The notes beneath the pieces were generated by a model. It searched no databases. It saw nothing but the letters and a program-made list of their open reading frames with translations, and was not told the DNA's origin. Below, in pieces: positions 3,239 to 43,427 of a DNA stretch of 64,000 bases. How positions within the stretch are numbered: the first letter of the stretch is position 1; the number at the start of each line of letters is the position of its first letter. A program made the translations under genes and the position numbers. Source of the DNA: Pelagibius sp. CAU 1746 (GTDB lineage Bacteria; Pseudomonadota; Alphaproteobacteria; Kiloniellales; Kiloniellaceae); the NCBI RefSeq assembly GCF_039839785.1, contig NZ_JBDOQT010000001.1:1178001-1242000 (forward strand), written 5' to 3'.

Positions 3239-6094
3239 ATGAGCGTAGATTACCGACCCACCGTCTTCCTGCCGAAGACCGACTTCCCGATGCGCGGCGG
3301 CCTGGCCCAGCGCGAGCCGGAGACCCTGGCGCGCTGGAACGAGCTCGACCTCTTCGCCCGGCTGCGCGAGGCCTCCGAGGGCCGCGAGAAGTTCATCCTC
3401 CACGACGGCCCGCCCTACGCCAACGGCCACCTGCACATCGGCCACGCGCTGAACAAGATCCTCAAGGACCTGATCAACCGCGCCCATCAGATGCTGGGCA
3501 AGGACGCGCACTACGTGCCGGGCTGGGATTGCCACGGCCTGCCCATCGAGTGGAAGATCGAGGAGCAGTACCGCGCCGCCGGCAAGGACAAGGACGCTGT
3601 GCCGGTGCTGGAGTTCCGCAAGGAATGCCGCGACTTCGCCGAGAAGTGGGTGAAGATCCAGACCGAGGAGTTCAAGCGCCTGGGCGTGGTCGGCAACTGG
3701 GAGCGGCCCTACACCACCATGTCGTTCGACGCCGAGGCGCAGATCGTGCGCGAGATCGGCAAGTTCCTGACCAACGGCGGCATCTACAAGGGCTCGCGCC
3801 CGGTGCTGTGGTCGGTGGTCGAAAAGACCGCCCTGGCCGATGCGGAGGTCGAGTACCACGACCACACCTCGACCACCATCTGGGTGCGCTTTCCGGTGGT
3901 GAAGAGCCCAGCCCCGCTGCTGGAGGGCGCCTCCGTCGTCATCTGGACCACCACGCCCTGGACCATCCCCGGCAACCGCGCCATCGGCTATGGCGAGGAG
4001 ATCGCCTACGGCGTGTTCCAGGTCGAGGCGGTGGCCGAGGGCAGCGCGGCCGAGGTCGGCGAGAAAATGGTGCTGGCCAAGGACCTGGCCGAGCAGGTGA
4101 AGGCCGATGCCAAGATCGAGGCCTGGCGCGAACTGGGCACGGTGAGCGCGCTGGCCGGCACGGTCTGCGGTCACCCCTGGAACGGCTTTGCGCCGGCCCA
4201 GGGCGGCTACGACTTCGACGTGCCGCTGCTGGCCGGCGACTTCGTCACCACCGAGCAGGGCACCGGCTTCGTGCACATCGCCCCGGGCCACGGCGCCGAC
4301 GACTGGGCGCTGGGCCGCCAGCACGGCATCGAGATCCCGCAGACCGTCGATGGCGCCGGCTACTTCTACGACCATGTGCCGCTGGTCGCCGGCGCGGTGG
4401 TCTACGACGAGAACGGCAAGCCGGGCGACGCCAACGGCAAGGTCATCAAGTACCTGGCCGAGGCCGGGCGCCTGGTGACCAAGGGCAAGCTGAAGCACAG
4501 CTATCCGCACTCCTGGCGCTCCAAGGCGCCGCTGATCTTCCGCAACACCTCGCAGTGGTTCATCTCCATGGAGACCAACGATCTGCGGGTGAAGGCCCTG
4601 AAGGCCATCGACGACACGCGCTTCGTGCCCGCCACCGGGCGCAACCGCCTGCGCTCCATGATCGAGCAGCGCCCGGACTGGTGCATCTCGCGCCAGCGCC
4701 TCTGGGGCGTGCCGCTGCCGATCTTCGTCGACAAGAAGACCGGCGAGCCCCTGCGCGATCAAGGCGTCATCGACCGGGTGGCCGAGGCCTTCGAGACGGA
4801 GGGCGGCGACGCCTGGTTCTCCAGCGACCCGCAGCGCTTCCTCGGCAACGACTACAACGCCGACGACTACGAGCAGATCACCGACGTGGTCGAGGTGTGG
4901 TTCGATTCCGGCTCCACCCATGCCTTCGTGCTGGAGGCGCGCCCGGAACTGAAGTGGCCCGCCGATCTCTACCTGGAAGGCTCCGACCAGCACCGCGGCT
5001 GGTTCCACTCCTCGCTGCTGGAGTCCTCGGGCACGCGCGGGCGCGCGCCCTATGACGCCGTGCTGACCCACGGCTTCATCCTGGAGGAGCAGGGCAAGGA
5101 GAAGATGTCCAAGTCGAAGGGCAATGCCCTCTCGCCGCAGGACGTCGTCGACACCCAGGGCGCCGATATCCTGCGCCTCTGGGTGGTCGCCTCGAACTAC
5201 GAGGAGGATCTGCGTTTCGGCCCGGATATCCTGAAGCACCAGGGCGATTCCTACCGCCGGCTGCGCAACACCCTGCGCTACCTGCTGGGCAACCTGGACG
5301 GCTTCACCGAGGCCGAGCGGGTCGCGGCGGAGGAGATGCCGGAGCTGGAGCGCTGGGTGCTGCACCGCCTGGCCGAACTGGACGCGCAGGTGCGCCGCAA
5401 CGTCGGGGACTTCGATTTCCACGCCCTCTATCAGGCGGTCTATAACTTCTGCGCCATCGACCTCTCGGCCTTCTACTTCGACGTCCGCAAGGACGTGCTG
5501 TATTGCGACCGCCCGGACGCGCTGCGCCGCCGCGCCTGCCGCACGGTGCTGGACGAGGTCTTTTCCTGCCTCACTGCCTGGCTGGCGCCGATCCTCTGCT
5601 TCACCGCCGAGGAAGCCTGGTGGGCGCGCGGCAGCGGGCCCGAGGCCTCGGTGCATCTGCGCACCTTCCCGGAGGTGCCGGCCGAGTGGCTCGACAGGGA
5701 CCTGGCCGACAAGTGGGCCAAGGTGCGCGAGGTGCGCCGCGTGGTCACCGGCGCCCTGGAGCTGGAGCGCGCCGCCAAGCGCATCGGATCCAGCCTGCAG
5801 GCGCGGCCGGTGGTGCATGTCGAGCGGCCGGAGCTGATGGCGGCCGTGGCCGCGGTGGAACTGGCGGACGTCGCCATCACCTCCGATGTCGCGCTGACCG
5901 GCGCGCCGGCGCCCGACGATGCCTTCCGCCTTGCCGAGGTGCCGGGGGTGGCTGTGGTCGCTCAGCTCGCCGAGGGCGAGAAGTGCGAGCGCTGCTGGAA
6001 GGTGCTGCCGGAGGTCGGGCGGGTGGCCGAGGCGCCGCAGACCTGCGGGCGCTGCGCCGATGCGGTGCAGCATCTGGGCGCCGCGGCGCAGTAG
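3239..6094 (+). CDS. ileS: isoleucyl-tRNA synthetase
   Basis: Charges tRNA-Ile and edits misactivated valine in its CP1 domain. The protein has 951 residues, the full length for bacterial class I IleRS. Class I signatures are present: HIGH at residues 66-69 and KMSKS at 622-626. The C-terminal zinc finger has four cysteines at about 916, 919, 936 and 939 (CERC...CGRC). The editing domain includes the WTTTPWTIP segment near residue 237. The gene follows ribF by 13 bases and precedes lspA by 17, so the three are probably cotranscribed. The very long open frame on the opposite strand here is a GC-bias shadow. Confidence 0.98.
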   Translation: MSVDYRPTVFLPKTDFPMRGGLAQREPETLARWNELDLFARLREASEGREKFILHDGPPYANGHLHIGHALNKILKDLINRAHQMLGKDAHYVPGWDCHGLPIEWKIEEQYRAAGKDKDAVPVLEFRKECRDFAEKWVKIQTEEFKRLGVVGNWERPYTTMSFDAEAQIVREIGKFLTNGGIYKGSRPVLWSVVEKTALADAEVEYHDHTSTTIWVRFPVVKSPAPLLEGASVVIWTTTPWTIPGNRAIGYGEEIAYGVFQVEAVAEGSAAEVGEKMVLAKDLAEQVKADAKIEAWRELGTVSALAGTVCGHPWNGFAPAQGGYDFDVPLLAGDFVTTEQGTGFVHIAPGHGADDWALGRQHGIEIPQTVDGAGYFYDHVPLVAGAVVYDENGKPGDANGKVIKYLAEAGRLVTKGKLKHSYPHSWRSKAPLIFRNTSQWFISMETNDLRVKALKAIDDTRFVPATGRNRLRSMIEQRPDWCISRQRLWGVPLPIFVDKKTGEPLRDQGVIDRVAEAFETEGGDAWFSSDPQRFLGNDYNADDYEQITDVVEVWFDSGSTHAFVLEARPELKWPADLYLEGSDQHRGWFHSSLLESSGTRGRAPYDAVLTHGFILEEQGKEKMSKSKGNALSPQDVVDTQGADILRLWVVASNYEEDLRFGPDILKHQGDSYRRLRNTLRYLLGNLDGFTEAERVAAEEMPELERWVLHRLAELDAQVRRNVGDFDFHALYQAVYNFCAIDLSAFYFDVRKDVLYCDRPDALRRRACRTVLDEVFSCLTAWLAPILCFTAEEAWWARGSGPEASVHLRTFPEVPAEWLDRDLADKWAKVREVRRVVTGALELERAAKRIGSSLQARPVVHVERPELMAAVAAVELADVAITSDVALTGAPAPDDAFRLAEVPGVAVVAQLAEGEKCERCWKVLPEVGRVAEAPQTCGRCADAVQHLGAAAQ

Positions 6095-6111
6095 GCGGCT
6101 TCCGGAACCCG

Positions 6112-6615
6112 ATGCAGCTTTCCCTCTATATCGGCGCGGCGATCCTGCTGCTCGACCAGCTCACCAAGTGGGTCATCCTGCTGCGCGTGATGGATCCGCC
6201 GCGGGTCATCGAGGTGACGGGCTTCTTCAATCTGGTGCTGACCTACAACACCGGTGTCAGCTTCGGCCTGTTTCAGGGCGACGCGGCCTGGCAGCCCTAT
6301 ATTCTCGTTTTTCTCAACCTGGCGGTCTCCGCCGGCCTGCTGATCTGGCTGCACCGGGAGACCCACAAAGGGGGTAGTGCGGGCCTGCTGCCCTGGGCCG
6401 TCGGCCTGGTCGTCGGCGGGGCGCTGGGCAACGCCGTCGACCGGCTGCATCTGCCGGGGGTCGTTGATTTTCTGGACTTTCACCTCGCCGGCTGGCATTG
6501 GCCGGCCTTCAATGTCGCCGACAGCGCCATCGTTGGCGGCGTGATCCTGCTGATCGCGGATGGCTTGTTCCAGCCCGGCAGGAAGGGTAATAAAGAGGCG
6601 GGGATAGGGAGGTAG
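6112..6615 (+). CDS. lspA: lipoprotein signal peptidase (signal peptidase II)
   Basis: Inner-membrane aspartic protease that cleaves the signal peptide of diacylglyceryl-modified prolipoproteins. The 167 residues have four transmembrane segments. Both catalytic aspartates are in their conserved contexts, GNAVDRL and FNVADSAI, and the DQLTKW motif near the N terminus and the YNTGVSFGLF segment are present. I chose the ATG at 6112 because it puts the first helix directly at the N terminus; the frame stays open upstream inside ileS but is not conserved. The next gene, five bases downstream, encodes a lipoprotein that would be a substrate. Confidence 0.96.
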   Translation: MQLSLYIGAAILLLDQLTKWVILLRVMDPPRVIEVTGFFNLVLTYNTGVSFGLFQGDAAWQPYILVFLNLAVSAGLLIWLHRETHKGGSAGLLPWAVGLVVGGALGNAVDRLHLPGVVDFLDFHLAGWHWPAFNVADSAIVGGVILLIADGLFQPGRKGNKEAGIGR

Positions 6616-6619
6616 TCGA

Positions 6620-7192
6620 ATGGATCGCAGCATGACCTTTAGACTTCTCATGTTTGCCGGGCTGGCCTTGAGCCTTTCCGCCTGCGGCGGATTCCGCGAG
6701 AGCCTGGGCATGAACAAGCAGTCGCCCGACGAATTCCGGGTCGTTTCGCGCGCGCCGCTGACGGTGCCGCCCGACTTCCAGCTTCGCCCGCCCGAGCCCG
6801 GCGCGCCGCGCCCGCAGGTCGGCACGCCGGCGCAGCAGGCCGAACGGGCCGTGTTCCGCAACAGCCAGGGTGCCCAGCAGACCGCCAACGCGGCGCCGCG
6901 GCGCGTCACCGTGGGCGAGCAGGCCCTGCTCAGCGCGACCGGCGCGCAGGCGGCCGATCCGAACATCCGCTTGATCGTCAACCGCGAAACCAAGCAGATC
7001 AACGAAGAGTCGGACTATTTCGTGGATCGCCTGGTCTTCTGGAACGACGTCCCGCCGACCGGCACCGTCGTCGATCCGGTGGCCGAACGCCGCCGCCTGC
7101 AGGAGAACGCGGCCCTCGGCCAGCCGGTCACCACCGGCCCGACGCCGCAGATCGAGCGCCGCCGCCAGGCGCCGCTGGAAGGCATTTTCTAG
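6620..7192 (+). CDS. DUF3035 outer-membrane lipoprotein (BamF-like)
   Basis: A 190-residue predicted lipoprotein: a short basic N terminus, a hydrophobic stretch and a lipobox LSLSAC with the modified cysteine near residue 22. The sequence after it (PDEFRVVSRAPLTVPPDF) is the hallmark of DUF3035. This family is found mainly in Alphaproteobacteria, and it resembles the short motif shared by BamC and the alphaproteobacterial accessory subunit BamF, so a role in the beta-barrel assembly complex is plausible but inferred. The rest is Pro/Arg/Gln-rich and probably disordered. It begins five bases after lspA and is followed by a terminator-like hairpin. Confidence 0.8.
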   Translation: MDRSMTFRLLMFAGLALSLSACGGFRESLGMNKQSPDEFRVVSRAPLTVPPDFQLRPPEPGAPRPQVGTPAQQAERAVFRNSQGAQQTANAAPRRVTVGEQALLSATGAQAADPNIRLIVNRETKQINEESDYFVDRLVFWNDVPPTGTVVDPVAERRRLQENAALGQPVTTGPTPQIERRRQAPLEGIF

Positions 7193-7254
7193 CCGTCTCA
7201 CGCCGCGCGCGCCGGTCTGCTGACCGGACGTTAACGATTGTTCACCATAATGCG

Positions 7255-7284
7255 ACCGGACGTCCGCTTGCGGGCGTCCGGTTT
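7255..7284 (+). terminator. rho-independent terminator after the ribF-ileS-lspA operon
   Basis: An 8-bp perfect stem, ACCGGACG at 7255-7262 with CGTCCGGT at 7275-7282, encloses a 12-nt loop that can pair further, and is followed by TTTCG. A smaller hairpin (CCGGTC/GACCGG, 7212-7227) precedes it. Position and orientation fit the end of the lipoprotein gene at 7192. Confidence 0.65.
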
Positions 7285-7378
7285 CGTGCCATATAGATGC
7301 TCAATAGAATCATTCTGTTTTAGCGGCAGGCCCGTGCGCGTCGCTTGGGCCCTGCACCGCTGGAGGGAGGTCCTGGAA

Positions 7379-8761
7379 ATGGCAGTTCTCCGCCGTCCGG
7401 TCCGTCTGGCCGCCCCGCTTTTCGGGGCCCTGGCCGTTTTCCTGGCAGGCTTTGCCGGGCTTGCGGGCAATGCCGGCGCCAAGGTTTTCGATCCGGTCAG
7501 CTTCACCCTGGACAACGGTCTGCAGGTGGTGGTCGTCGTCAACCGCCGCGCCCCCATCGTCCATCACTCGGTGTGGTACCGGGTCGGCGCCGCGGACGAG
7601 CAGGCGGGGGAATCCGGTCTCGCGCATTTTCTCGAGCACCTCATGTTCAAGGGCACCGAAAGCCTCGCCCCCGGCGAGTTCTCCGACATCATCGCCGCCA
7701 ACGGCGGGCGCGAGAACGCCTTCACCTCCTGGGACTACACCGCCTACTACCAGACGGTCGCGGCCGACCGCCTGGAGATCATGATGAAGAACGAGGCCGA
7801 CCGCATGGCCAACCTGATGCTCACCGACGACGTGGTGCTGCCGGAGCGCGAGGTGGTGCGCGAGGAACGCCGCAGCCGCATCGACAACGAGCCGGGAAGC
7901 CAACTCGGCGAGATCAGCCGCGCGGTGCTGTTCCTCAACCACCCTTACCGCATTCCCATCATCGGCTGGGACCACGAGATCGAACAGCTCTCCACCGGGG
8001 CGGCGGTCGCCTTCTATGACAAGTGGTACGCGCCCAACAATGCCGTCCTCATCGTCGCCGGCGACGTCGATCCCGAAGAGGTGCGCGCCCTGGCGGAGAA
8101 GTATTACGGCGTCATCCCGCGCAAGGACGTGCCGCAGCGCAAGCGCGTGGTCGAGCCGCCGCAGAATGCGCCGCGCGAGGTAACGCTGGAAAGCCCGCGG
8201 GTGCGCCAGCCGCAGGTCCGCGTCACCTATCTCGCTCCCAGTCACCGCCAGGCGGTCGAGCAGGGCTTGCGCAACGATACCTACGCCCTGCAGGTGCTCT
8301 CGGAAATCATCGGCGGCGGCGCCACGGCGCGCCTCTACAGCCGCCTGGTGGTGGAGCAGGGCATCGCCGGCTCCGCCGGGGCCGGGTATAGCCCCAACGA
8401 TTACGACTACTCGACCTTCACCTTCTACGTCGCGCCGCGCCCCGGCGGCGAGGTGGCGCCGGTCGAGGCGGCCCTGCGCGCGCAGATCGCCGAACTGCTG
8501 CAAAGCGGCGTCAGCGAGGAAGAGGTCGCCGCAGCCAAGAAGCGTCTGGTCGCCGCCGCCGTTTTCGCGCGCGACAGCCTGGCGACGGCACCGCGAGTGA
8601 TCGGCGCGGCCTTGACCACCGGCAGCAGCCTGGAGGACGTCGAGGCCTGGCCCGAGCGCGTCGCCGAGGTCACCGTCGAGGACGTGAACCGTGCCATGAA
8701 GGACGTGCTGCGCGACGCGCAGTCGGTCACCAGCTATCTGCTGCCGGAGCCGACGAGTTGA
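7379..8761 (+). CDS. M16 family zinc peptidase, active subunit
   Basis: Secreted or periplasmic zinc metallopeptidase of the pitrilysin family (mitochondrial processing peptidase beta-like). A signal peptide covers about residues 1-33. The inverted zinc motif HFLEH is at residues 83-87, and the third ligand is one of the glutamates in REERRSR near residues 162-163. The C-terminal half carries the GGGATARLYSRLV segment of the partner-type domain. The 460-residue length fits a half-size M16B subunit that must pair with a second subunit. The start at 7379 follows a good Shine-Dalgarno (GGAGGGAGG); the frame extends 47 codons upstream with no such site. The partner gene follows 61 bases later. 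Confidence 0.92.
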   Translation: MAVLRRPVRLAAPLFGALAVFLAGFAGLAGNAGAKVFDPVSFTLDNGLQVVVVVNRRAPIVHHSVWYRVGAADEQAGESGLAHFLEHLMFKGTESLAPGEFSDIIAANGGRENAFTSWDYTAYYQTVAADRLEIMMKNEADRMANLMLTDDVVLPEREVVREERRSRIDNEPGSQLGEISRAVLFLNHPYRIPIIGWDHEIEQLSTGAAVAFYDKWYAPNNAVLIVAGDVDPEEVRALAEKYYGVIPRKDVPQRKRVVEPPQNAPREVTLESPRVRQPQVRVTYLAPSHRQAVEQGLRNDTYALQVLSEIIGGGATARLYSRLVVEQGIAGSAGAGYSPNDYDYSTFTFYVAPRPGGEVAPVEAALRAQIAELLQSGVSEEEVAAAKKRLVAAAVFARDSLATAPRVIGAALTTGSSLEDVEAWPERVAEVTVEDVNRAMKDVLRDAQSVTSYLLPEPTS

Positions 8762-39772: not shown

Positions 39773-39938
39773 CGGGCCTCGCTTCAAGGAGAACGGCTTC
39801 AAGGAGAACGAAGGTGCGTCGGTCTCGATCTTGGGGAGGAATATAGGGTCTCAGGGCCCGCCTTGCACCCGCTGTCAGGTCGCACCCACGGACCGCTATA
39901 GGACTCAGCGACGCCAAGCCGCTTGAAACAGGCCTGCC

Positions 39939-40072
39939 TACGTAAATCTCCCTTGGCCCCACAACCAAGGCGAGAAATTATCAAGTTGTAGTATTATGTG
40001 ACCTTGGAGAGACTTGATAGAATAAACAGTCTAATTGGAGTCGTCTTTATTCCCTGCTGGGAGATTTACGTA
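39939..40072 (+). promoter_or_regulatory. upstream region of the Argonaute operon bounded by a 14-bp inverted repeat
   Basis: TACGTAAATCTCCC (39939-39952) and its exact reverse complement GGGAGATTTACGTA (40059-40072) flank an AT-rich stretch of 106 bases. The right arm contains the GGGAG ribosome site and ends one base before the GTG at 40074. A CCTTGG/CCAAGG hairpin follows the left arm. Candidate promoter boxes exist, for example TTGGCC and AATTAT 17 bases apart, but are not convincing. The arms could be operators or form an RNA stem hiding the ribosome site. Confidence 0.55.
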
Positions 40073-40073
40073 A

Positions 40074-41402
40074 GTGCCGAAGCGTATCGGAAAATCGGAC
40101 ATAATTGGCGAGCAAGGGATAGCGCATATTCGCAAGGTTGTGCTCGACATGGGGCATCTCTTTTATGAGACCGGGGGGGTCGAAGCGGGAATTGATGGTT
40201 TTATCGAACTTAGAAACGACGAAACCGGAGAGGTGACAAATCTTCTTCTTCAGGTGCAAGGCAAAGCTACAGCAAAGGAACAGCTTCCCGCTGAAACGAT
40301 GGAGAGCTTTGAATGGCCTTGTAAAGAAGAAGATATTGCCTACTGGCGACAGGGAACGGCACCTGTTCTTTTGATCATCGTGCAGACGAAATTCAATCGT
40401 GCATACTGGAAATCGATTAAGGATTATTTCGACGACCCCAAAGCAATAGAGAGTCGTCGGGTAGTTTTTAACAAGAAGGTAGACAGTTTTGATCTCGCTG
40501 CGAAGCCGGCTATATCAACGATAGCAGCTAGCGTTCGGCCAGGGGCAATTGCTCCTCCGGCTAGGATATCTGAGCAACTAGTTTCCAATTTACTGCCCGT
40601 CACATTTGTGAGTAAGCGCTTGTTTCTTGCTGAGACAGACTACCGAACGAATAAGGAGTTTGGTGCTGCGCTTAGAGATTTGGTGGATGATGGCCATGGA
40701 GAATGGATAGTAAAGGGTGGTCGGATTCTGTCGTTTCATGATCTCGATGAACACCCCTGGAACAGACTCTGCGATGTTGGCACGATTGAATCATTTCCAA
40801 TTGAAGAATGGGCAAGTTCGACAGATGAAGATCAGCAGCGAGATTTCGTTCAGCTACTGAACCGTTCTCTGAGTGGTATGACAGGTGAGGCGCTAAGATT
40901 CGATAGAGAAGATAAAACGCATTATTTCAAATGCATTCCAGAGAAGACGCGGCGCATATACTATTATCGAGGGTTTGAGAAGCGCACCTCGCGTGATGTT
41001 GTCAGGCGCTATTCGAAGAAGCAATCACCTACCGAAACCGCATATTTTAGACATTCAGCATTTCGTGCTCGTTTTCATAGGTTCGGCGACGTTTGGTATT
41101 TGGAAGTTACGCCCACATACCATTTCACCCGTGACGGCTTCCGCGAAGACCGTTTCGCTGCGGAGCATCTAAAAAAGATAAAGGAGTTTGAAAACAACGC
41201 TGCTGTGGTGGGGCAGTTCGCCATGTGGCGACATTACCTAACTAGGTGTCACCGCGGCGACATGTTCTCTCCCGAGTACCCATTTCTGCGATTCGACGTT
41301 TTGGAAGATTTCCCAATCGAACAAGGGGTTCCTGACGAACTCTGGCGGTCAAGAGAATCTCGGCAGCGTGCCGGACTCTTTGGCGATGATCTGATTGTCT
41401 GA
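40074..41402 (+). CDS. DUF4365 (DREN) nuclease-APAZ effector of a short Argonaute system
   Basis: 442 residues from a GTG preceded by GGGAG. The first ~150 residues are a DUF4365/DREN domain of the PD-(D/E)xK nuclease superfamily: Glu13 in GEQGIAHI, Asp41 in GIDGFIEL, and Gln62-x-Lys64 in LLLQVQGKA form the expected active site. From about 165 to the end the sequence fits an APAZ region (the N/L1/L2-like partner of short Argonautes), ending FLRFDVLEDFP...GVPDELW. The pair with the following Argonaute matches SPARDA, in which guide-directed target DNA recognition unleashes collateral DNase/RNase activity. The base composition is AT-richer than flanking genes. The stop overlaps the next start (TGATG). 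Confidence 0.85.
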   Translation: MPKRIGKSDIIGEQGIAHIRKVVLDMGHLFYETGGVEAGIDGFIELRNDETGEVTNLLLQVQGKATAKEQLPAETMESFEWPCKEEDIAYWRQGTAPVLLIIVQTKFNRAYWKSIKDYFDDPKAIESRRVVFNKKVDSFDLAAKPAISTIAASVRPGAIAPPARISEQLVSNLLPVTFVSKRLFLAETDYRTNKEFGAALRDLVDDGHGEWIVKGGRILSFHDLDEHPWNRLCDVGTIESFPIEEWASSTDEDQQRDFVQLLNRSLSGMTGEALRFDREDKTHYFKCIPEKTRRIYYYRGFEKRTSRDVVRRYSKKQSPTETAYFRHSAFRARFHRFGDVWYLEVTPTYHFTRDGFREDRFAAEHLKKIKEFENNAAVVGQFAMWRHYLTRCHRGDMFSPEYPFLRFDVLEDFPIEQGVPDELWRSRESRQRAGLFGDDLIV

Positions 41403-42868
41403 TGTTTGAAGTCTCTCACTTGGCCGAGCCTGAGCTCGAGTTTGGGGGTGGTAGTCGACATCAGGATATTCGATTTGGGTTAATGGACTACGGTCCATTC
41501 GACGCTACTCACAGTGAATCGCTACGGCGAGTGCGAATTGGCATTGTTGGTAGCGCTCAAACTGTCGAAGGGACGGCACGCTGGATTGAAAGGTGCCAAT
41601 GCGGATTAGAAGCAAAGGAAAGTCGCCAACCAAACCTCTTTCCACCTTTTCCCGGTTGGGGGGAAGATGTGACTTTCCGCTGTGATTTTGTTGCCGCTAG
41701 CGAAATGACGAGAGTAGTTCCGTCTCGCGAGCTTTTGCGGATCTCCGCCATAGACGACAGCAATCAAGCTACCCGTGAGGCAGTATCATTGTTCCTCGAC
41801 GAGATAAGAGCGTTAGCTGAGCAAAACACTCCTCCAGACGTGATCCTTTGCGCTTTGCCTCTCGAGGTCATCCAAGCAACGGTGAATGCTGGAGTTGCTG
41901 ACGATGATCTCGATGATCAATCTGAGGGAGAGAGCTCGACTGGAGAATCAGCGTTGAATCTAAGGGGCATGCTCAAGGCGGCGTGTATGGAACTTCGGTT
42001 GCCAATACAAATATTGTGGCCGACTACTTACGATTCGTCGATACGCATCCCACGAAAGCTAAAGGTGGTAAGTGATAGAAGGGTACAGGATGATGCGACG
42101 CGCGCTTGGAACTTTTTCACTGCGCTTTATTACAAAGCTAATGGTTTGCCGTGGCGCATGGTGCGTGATCCGAAGCAGCTAAAGGCGTCCTACATTGGGA
42201 TCAGCTTCTATCGCACTGCTGACAATGAGCTGGTTCATTCAAGTTCCGCGCAGATGTTCGATGAGCGAGGAGAGGGTTTGATATTGCGAGGAGCGCGGGC
42301 GCACGAGTCAAAAGATGACCGCCGGCCACATCTGCTTGAGGAGGATGCATATGGTCTTCTCTCAAATTCTTTATCAGTTTTCCGACAACAACATGGTCAT
42401 TTTCCAGCTCGCGTTGTTCTGCATAAGACGTCGAACTTCAACACCGATGAGCTCGCCGGATTTGCGAGCGCGCTTCAGGAGCGGAGCATCGACTATGCAG
42501 ATATGATTGTAATTTCGAAGTCGTTTACGCGCCTTTATCGGAAAGGCGGTTATCCCCCTCTTCGTGGCACGCTGATGCGACTCGACGACGAGCGGGCAAT
42601 ACTCTACGCGAAAGGGAGTATAGAGTTCTTTCGTACTTATCCGGGAATGTACGTTCCTCGACCTCTCCTCTTTAGGTGTGCGAGAAGAGACCAAGCATTG
42701 AAGTTCCTCGCTGAGGAGCTCCTTTCCCTCACCAAAATGAACTGGAACAACACCCAGTTTGATGGGGGCGAGCCAATTACTGTTCGGGCCGCACGCTATG
42801 TAGGTGACATCCTCAAGTATGTTCCAGAGGGGCGCTCTATTGCACCTCGATACAGCTTCTACATGTGA
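41402..42868 (+). CDS. short prokaryotic Argonaute (MID-PIWI), catalytically inactive
   Basis: 488 residues with no N or PAZ domain. A MID-like domain (about 145-255) has candidate 5'-phosphate-binding residues Lys192 (RGMLKAA), Gln203 (PIQILW) and Lys245 (YKANGLPW). The PIWI domain follows: first strand YIGISFY (264-270) with Ser268 where active PIWI has the first catalytic Asp, then MFDERGEGLILRG, VVLHKTSNFNTDE, and the conserved C-terminal KMNWNNTQFDGGEPIT (445-460). Missing tetrad residues mean it should bind guide and target but not cut. It should act as the guide-directed sensor for the DREN-APAZ protein encoded immediately upstream. Its ATG overlaps that gene's TGA by one base. Composition suggests horizontal gain. 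Confidence 0.88.
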   Translation: MFEVSHLAEPELEFGGGSRHQDIRFGLMDYGPFDATHSESLRRVRIGIVGSAQTVEGTARWIERCQCGLEAKESRQPNLFPPFPGWGEDVTFRCDFVAASEMTRVVPSRELLRISAIDDSNQATREAVSLFLDEIRALAEQNTPPDVILCALPLEVIQATVNAGVADDDLDDQSEGESSTGESALNLRGMLKAACMELRLPIQILWPTTYDSSIRIPRKLKVVSDRRVQDDATRAWNFFTALYYKANGLPWRMVRDPKQLKASYIGISFYRTADNELVHSSSAQMFDERGEGLILRGARAHESKDDRRPHLLEEDAYGLLSNSLSVFRQQHGHFPARVVLHKTSNFNTDELAGFASALQERSIDYADMIVISKSFTRLYRKGGYPPLRGTLMRLDDERAILYAKGSIEFFRTYPGMYVPRPLLFRCARRDQALKFLAEELLSLTKMNWNNTQFDGGEPITVRAARYVGDILKYVPEGRSIAPRYSFYM

Positions 42869-42917
42869 TAGCCATAGCGGACAGGCGCGACATCCTGGTC
42901 TCGGGTGACGGAGAGAA

Positions 42918-43427
42918 TTAAAGATCGTAGTGCAGCACGGGCAGGCAGCGCTCGCTGCCGTCGGGCGCGCGCACGGGGGAGCGCACCTTGCCCGAGAGTG
43001 TCGCCCCGACGGCGCGGTAGAAGCCCAGCGCGAAGGGGTCGCTCAAGACCTTCAGGCGCTTCAGGCCCCGGGCGCGGGCCGTGGCCACGGCGTGGTCCCA
43101 CAGCGTCCGGCCGAGGCCGCGGCCGATGGCGGCGGGCTCGACGAAGAGCAGGCTGACCTCCGCCTCGTCGCGGCGTTCGCCGGGGTCCAGGGCGTAGAAG
43201 CCCAGCGGGGTGTCCTCCTCGACCAGCACCACGACCCGCCCGGCGGCGATATTCGCCGGGGAGACCGCCAGTTCGTCGCGGCAGGCCTGGATGAAGTGCG
43301 GGTCATAGCCCCAGTAGGCCTTGGAGCGCAGGGCCAGGGCGGAGAGGGTGCCGCATTCCTCGGGCCTTGCCGGCCGCAGCAGCCGGCCGCCGTTGTCTTG
43401 CTCGGAAATCCGGGCGCCGGTCTTCAT
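42918..43427 (-). CDS. GNAT family N-acetyltransferase
   Basis: 169 residues from the ATG at 43427 (24 upstream in-frame residues look non-coding). The N terminus reads LLRPARPEECGTLSALALRSKAYWGYD, typical of GNAT proteins with an SKAxWGY motif. The acetyl-CoA loop is AIGRGLGRTLWDHAV, and RLKVLSDPFALGFYRAVGAT is motif B. The substrate is unknown. It returns to the GC-rich composition of the chromosome, marking the right side of the Argonaute insert; 49 bases separate it from the Argonaute stop, and the two are convergent. Confidence 0.85.
   Translation of the reverse strand: MKTGARISEQDNGGRLLRPARPEECGTLSALALRSKAYWGYDPHFIQACRDELAVSPANIAAGRVVVLVEEDTPLGFYALDPGERRDEAEVSLLFVEPAAIGRGLGRTLWDHAVATARARGLKRLKVLSDPFALGFYRAVGATLSGKVRSPVRAPDGSERCLPVLHYDL

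Follow-up and report, generated by a model that had tools for sequence, protein, structure and literature searches.

The closest described counterparts of the locus reported here are SPARDA (short prokaryotic Argonaute and DNase/RNase-APAZ) systems, in which a short Argonaute is paired with a DREN-APAZ effector. In NbaSPARDA of Novosphingopyxis baekryungensis (hereafter Nba; PDB 9jsb, 9jsp, 9jsz, and 9jt2), for which we draw on part of the published account, a 5'-phosphorylated guide is used, target induces a filament together with a tetramer of DREN domains, the link between DREN and APAZ is flexible, and the catalytic DREN residues are D41, Q60, and K62 (PMC12205087). A second system, TmuRE-Ago of Thermocrispum municipale, likewise joins a DUF4365-APAZ protein to a short Argonaute and, as given in the part of its account used here, has a predicted active site with the same Q62/K64 numbering as our locus and, unlike Nba, prefers a 5'-OH guide with a 5' uridine (PMC10810196). 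These two were the only primary papers on DUF4365-type systems among the matches listed. The best PDB sequence matches, which have the same architecture, are XauSPARDA of Xanthobacter autotrophicus (PDB 9qbq, 9qbl, and 9qcc), also deposited as a filament according to its PDB title, and the SPARDA system of Enhydrobacter aerosaccus (9qbp); no paper on either was among the matches listed. Here we compare with these systems a two-gene locus at positions 40074-42868 of a 64,000-nucleotide stretch of Pelagibius sp. CAU 1746 DNA (contig NZ_JBDOQT010000001.1; the whole stretch is referred to as the window).

We consider, with a probability of roughly 0.93, that the locus is a complete SPARDA system, that is, an RNA-guided, DNA-sensing collateral nuclease activated by assembly. 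This assignment, which had been made in a first-pass annotation of the sequence, is supported by profile and PDB sequence matches, by the predicted folds, by the mapping of residues onto NbaSPARDA, and by an Argonaute tree. The operon is apparently intact and seems to be of the ordinary SPARDA type, with a mechanism expected to be the one already described. By analogy with the described systems, the effector and the Argonaute would form a heterodimer in which the MID domain holds the 5' end of a small RNA guide, and this guided heterodimer would find complementary invader DNA. A long enough target would then cause complexes to assemble, as in the NbaSPARDA filament, bringing the DREN nuclease domains together for non-specific nucleic acid cleavage that would stop or kill the infected cell. 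The RNA guide, the DNA target, assembly, collateral cleavage, and a role in defence by abortive immunity are all features that we infer from those systems.

Gene pair and protein domains

The features of the operon are as follows.

40074-41402, + strand: DREN-APAZ protein (nuclease effector plus APAZ), 442 amino acids, GTG start; from the open reading frame (ORF) list, profiles, PDB sequence match, and fold
40110-40517, + strand: DREN/DUF4365 PD-(D/E)xK nuclease domain, residues 13-148; Pfam PF14280, E 2e-20; active site Asp41, Gln62, Lys64
40530-41369, + strand: APAZ region, residues about 153-432; match to 9qbl (Xanthobacter SPARDA mutant without DREN), Foldseek TMt 0.87 and 0.89 to 9qbl chains A and C
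41402-42868, + strand: short Argonaute, MID-PIWI only, 488 amino acids, ATG start; PIWI expected to be inactive (Ser268)

Both ORFs were confirmed at the positions first assigned to them on the + strand, and they share one base within TGATG. A genome scan confirmed 211 relatives, and the best 80 of the 211 were retained. The adjacent, same-strand order of the two genes is found at our locus, and effector and Argonaute genes overlap in 35 of the 39 loci measured, with start codons in the relatives picked by script; of the remaining four, two have a short gap between the genes and two have an effector that is interrupted.

The first protein had been described as a DUF4365-like nuclease with an APAZ-like remainder, and both parts of this description were borne out, the first by PF14280 and the second by the match to 9qbl. 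In addition, the PADLOC model for the restriction endonuclease associated with short Argonautes (REase-PNTD1-PNTD2), in which we take PNTD to denote the APAZ region, matches residues 1-432 (E 2.4e-154). The only other Pfam family listed for the effector was Rad4, below its cut-off; no APAZ family was found in the Pfam scan, and NCBIfam gave no family. By sequence, the effector matches the SPARDA effectors 9qbq, 9qbp, and 9jsb in the PDB (E 2.3e-69 to 4.8e-61), and DUF4365 is present in all 38 aligned effectors.

The second protein, previously annotated as an Argonaute with MID and PIWI domains only, is matched over residues 2-488 by PADLOC pAgo_I (E 3.6e-176). It has no Pfam match above cut-off, and the only NCBIfam match, to argonaute, is weak and falls well short of its cut-off (E 0.0008); by sequence, it matches the SPARDA Argonautes 9qbp, 9qbl, and 9jsb (E 6e-122 to 2.6e-116). 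The DUF4365, PADLOC, and PDB matches of the two proteins are all much stronger than chance would give. Identity with the XauSPARDA and E. aerosaccus Argonautes is 37-41% over Foldseek alignments, and NbaSPARDA, which has the same domain order, is 29% identical in the effector and 41% in the Argonaute.

AlphaFold models of the two proteins were built on alignments of their relatives (40 rows for the Argonaute and 38 for the effector). The Argonaute model has a mean predicted local distance difference test score (pLDDT) of 83.7 and a predicted template modeling score (pTM) of 0.86, and SPARDA Argonautes account for all of its top 22 PDB matches, ahead of those of SPARHA and SPARTA. The top match is the guide RNA-bound SPARDA structure 9vx1 (TMq 0.91), and the model aligns over its full length with SPARDA Argonautes, having MID and PIWI and no PAZ or N domain. 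The DREN-APAZ model (mean pLDDT 87.9, pTM 0.61) has SPARDA effectors as all of its 23 best PDB matches. Neither of the two outcomes named beforehand as refuting the initial assignment occurred: the first protein has a DUF4365 match, and the second has a predicted MID-PIWI fold.

Active site, guide pocket, and assembly contacts

Asp41 (GAT, 40194-40196), Gln62 (CAA, 40257-40259), and Lys64 (AAA, 40263-40265) of the effector align with the catalytic D41, Q60, and K62 of NbaSPARDA. All 56 residue names from the NbaSPARDA paper that were checked against the Nba sequences agree, which supports the residue numbering. The effector alignment has 39 rows (the window, Nba, and 37 loci). Of 39 loci with a forward effector match extending to the N-terminus, L008 and L034 were left out because their frames are interrupted (259 and 252 amino acids); L009 was also left out, as the contig ends within its effector. 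Counts for Argonaute residues are over 41 rows. The catalytic Asp and Gln are found in 39 of 39 rows and the Lys in 38 of 39. The first-pass annotation had treated Gln-x-Lys as an unusual nuclease motif, but its near invariance among relatives indicates that it is the norm and represents the normal active site of the DREN nuclease. Nor was the proposal of Glu13 as a catalytic residue upheld, since the NbaSPARDA paper, in the part used here, makes it a tetramer contact (E13-R20) and does not include it among the catalytic residues it names (PMC12205087). The corresponding position is Gln in 24, Glu in 13, and Asp in two of the 39 rows.

In the Argonaute, Ser268 (AGC, 42203-42205) occupies what we take to be the first position of the catalytic tetrad and HKTS at 341-344 another, both placed by sequence motifs, and there is no Asp at either of these two PIWI positions. 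Serine is found at the Ser268 position in 39 of 41 Argonautes, Nba included, so the PIWI residues are not atypical as had been suggested. On the basis of Ser268, the PIWI domain is expected to be inactive; according to the part of a survey used here, all short prokaryotic Argonautes are without the DEDX catalytic tetrad (PMC6299218).

Thirteen guide contacts of Nba were mapped onto the Argonaute; NbaAgo W159, another guide contact in the paper, was used only to check the numbering. Much of the pocket is the same as in Nba: all 41 Argonautes have K192, Q229, N237, and K245, and N186, R188, W206, R226, and R462 retain the Nba residue, while L233 of Nba is replaced by F238. At the level of sequence, the core of the guide pocket is conserved. 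Asn186 (codon 41957-41959) is shared by the window and Nba only (2/41), with Asp in most rows. The Nba Asn at this position contacts the first guide base, an adenine, as described in the part of the paper used here (PMC12205087). Since Asn186 is common to both, a similar preference for the first guide base is possible at our locus.

Among the assembly contacts, R285 of Nba corresponds to R289 and is invariant (41/41 Argonautes). The DREN pair E13-R20 is Glu and Arg here as well, and the two positions carry opposite charges in 10 of 39 rows, whereas shuffles average 3.8 and none of 2000 comes as high, a comparison in which the relatedness of the rows is uncontrolled. The charges of Nba K324/E360 are also retained, as R328/D364.

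Several observations weigh against the reading of the locus as a complete SPARDA system. The charge signal at K324/E360 is weak: 28 of 41 rows have opposite charges, but column shuffles average 25.1 and 75 of 2000 are as high. Nba R287-E253 is replaced by E291/P257, the first position being Glu or Asp in 39 of 41 rows, and Q29/D31/R33 of the Nba DREN domain by L29/Y31/T33, with Thr at the R33 position in 34 of 39 rows. Neither the MID-PIWI contact R142-D480 (P144/R483 here) nor the Argonaute-dimer contact E268/R301 (T272/D305) is retained, and the guide contacts F182, S447, and N451 are L187, N450, and D454, of which N450 and D454 are the majority residues (40/41 each), making Nba the exception. 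In the DREN-APAZ model, whole-chain TM-scores (TMq) are only 0.45-0.57 for the 16 best matches, with root-mean-square deviations of 13-22 Å; APAZ alone superposes at 2.4-2.9 Å on the 9qbl chains and 9qbp_A, and we attribute the modest whole-chain scores to a flexible link between DREN and APAZ like that of Nba. Lastly, a search of 39800-43000 turned up no sigma-70-like promoter. Because several assembly contacts and a few guide contacts of Nba are altered, the geometry and the details of guide binding may differ here, and assembly with different detailed contacts is likely by comparison with Nba. As the residue tables name both the kept and the lost contacts, this member is suited to testing the conservation of assembly.

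Relatives and the inserted segment

The Argonaute tree, a quick one, has 84 rows (the window, Nba, and 82 loci). L002, whose match lies on the other strand, was used neither in the alignments nor in the tree, and L044 was left out because its Argonaute is cut. Rows were labeled by effector, with "other effector" denoting no full N-terminal DREN match rather than an identified effector. The 42 Argonautes labeled DREN require two changes on the tree, where shuffling gives a mean of 28.2. L047, which has a DREN partner and falls outside the main DREN set, and L040, which has none and falls inside it, are the exceptions. Two sets made up of DREN rows only contain the window, one of 12 rows (SH-aLRT 97) and one of 18 (SH-aLRT 100). 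The five rows closest to the window comprise two from Sphingomonas and one each from Novosphingobium, Erythrobacter, and Bosea; the long branches of Nba, L048, L047, L004, and L005 are unsurely placed.

Orthologs in Sphingomonas (L007), Novosphingobium (L008), Erythrobacter (L014), Bosea (L011), and Bradyrhizobium (L010) have 60.6-63.0% Argonaute identity. In all of these except L008, the genes overlap and the effectors are 51.4-52.5% identical to ours. Three loci have unusual effector regions. In L008 (Novosphingobium sp. ST904, 4671-6007), the effector is split in two overlapping frames, which could be a broken gene or a sequencing error; L034 has a short effector of 252 amino acids; and in L040 (Calothrix sp. 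C42_A2020_038, 4541-7404), no DREN-APAZ gene was detected alongside an Argonaute of the SPARDA clade. Upstream ORFs in L040 resemble transposase pieces by eye, and its Argonaute may be an orphan after insertion.

Relatives of the Argonaute, with any effector, were found in 101 of 72,556 plasmid records, 84 of them covering at least 80% of the query and 52 of the 101 being on plasmids predicted to be conjugative. None of 50,697 phage records contained a relative at E 1e-5.

In the genome of Pelagibius sp. CAU 1746, the operon lies on a segment delimited by comparison with a near congener (G007).

39875-42918, no strand: inserted segment of 3,044 base pairs (bp), low in guanine plus cytosine (GC), with the operon; BLASTN against G007 (locus L107), ends at BLAST resolution

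Homology with G007 ends at window position 39874 and restarts at 42919, and 16 bp lie between these points in G007. The GC fraction of the segment is 0.499; in 549 other windows of equal length it averages 0.686 and never falls below 0.649. The insertion lies between pmbA and a GNAT gene, and its right end is at the GNAT stop codon (42918-42920), so both flanking genes are intact. Both are present in all eight members of the genus, 85 to 239 bases apart in the seven congeners against 3,148 here. An Argonaute match (E 0.001 or better) was found in five of 58 genomes, that of CAU 1746 included, and this genome is alone among the eight of the genus; of the other four, only G041 (L002) has a nearly full-length effector match (residues 1-424, 30.5% identity). 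The low GC and the seven empty sites argue for a gain here and not for losses elsewhere, and the lineage of this genome seems to have gained the operon rather recently, separately from the congeners examined. The locus thus adds an apparently intact member, at a site empty in seven of seven congeners, to a family whose mechanism has been described only recently.

No integrase or transposase gene was seen in the ORF list of the insertion, which holds, apart from the operon, only short ORFs in other frames, read without a profile search. Terminal inverted repeats and a target duplication were both considered and rejected: comparing the left 110 with the right 50 bases gave a top score of 17, which 20% of 2000 shuffles also attain, and the longest direct match between the two junctions is five bases.

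Leader repeat and competing explanations

The leader of the operon contains a perfect inverted repeat.

39939-39952, + strand: left arm of the 14-bp inverted repeat, TACGTAAATCTCCC; its 13-bp core is found exactly only twice in its own genome, both times here
40059-40072, + strand: right arm; holds a GGGAG Shine-Dalgarno-like stretch and ends just before the GTG start

The length of the repeat exceeds that in 30 shuffles (maximum 9). The core has two further places in the genome at one mismatch, and a reversed-pattern control has two at up to one mismatch. The fold of the leader RNA is weakly unusual (z -1.66; 10 of 200 shuffles fold as well). We surveyed 38 of the 40 loci with an effector match reaching the N-terminus, leaving out L029 (too little upstream DNA) and L002 (orientation), with starts again picked by script. 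The repeat was rejected as a family feature, as none of the 38 relatives reaches 14 bp, and it was not found in the five orthologs named above. Leader repeats in L022 and L031 measure 11 bp, where shuffles of each give at most 9, and those in L023 and L034 measure 9 where shuffles give at most 8.

One version of the SPARDA assignment would make the locus a branch with an active assembly unlike the NbaSPARDA filament, and with expression gated by pairing of the 14-bp leader repeat over the ribosome binding site of the effector. The first part draws on the replacement of the R287-E253 salt bridge by Glu/Pro and of the DREN beta-interface residues; we regard the combination as unlikely.

The locus could also be read as a SPARDA relic, whose genes are intact through recent arrival, yet silent or non-functional in this host. 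The low GC and the failure to find a sigma-70-like promoter would fit such a relic, as would, weakly, an inverted repeat that could fold over the ribosome binding site, and the broken or orphan copies in L008, L034, and L040 provide examples elsewhere. However, both ORFs are full length, and wherever at least 90% of the other DREN-APAZ rows agree, the effector of the window has the shared residue. The Argonaute differs at four such positions (S280, A298, A403, and S442), and three fall in a loop absent from most rows. Based on these comparisons, we judge a relic to be quite improbable.

A functional SPARDA system, as we prefer to read the locus, might still be a guided nuclease that cuts its target only, instead of killing through collateral cleavage, and an earlier study cited in the part of PMC10810196 used here did report RNA-guided target cleavage by a pair of SMEK-APAZ and short Argonaute. 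This is very unlikely given that TmuRE-Ago (PMC10810196) and NbaSPARDA (PMC12205087), both of the DUF4365-APAZ type, are described in the available parts of their accounts as acting non-specifically once activated. Membership of a different short-Argonaute class (SPARHA with HNH, SMEK-APAZ, SPARTA, or SPARSA) can be dismissed as extremely improbable, for while APAZ and MID-PIWI folds are common to all of these and a SPARHA Argonaute matches by sequence (E 2.8e-66), the effector domain is DUF4365, HNH-, TIR-, and SIR2-type structures score below SPARDA, the Pfam scan of the effector lists no HNH, TIR, or SIR2 match, and both 9om4_A (residues 157-391) and two PADLOC SIR2 models (from residues 162 and 166 on) match the APAZ part only.

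The genes neighboring the SPARDA operon are housekeeping-like: DUF2239, RimK-like ATP-grasp, two GNATs, PmbA/TldD, LeuA, and PAS_5. In two congeners (L110 and L112), the spacer between pmbA and the GNAT gene, which is the site of the insert, contains a long GC-rich hairpin with arms of about 25 bases by eye. An exact tandem duplication of 15 bp, absent in G007, is present at 39781-39810, just upstream of pmbA.

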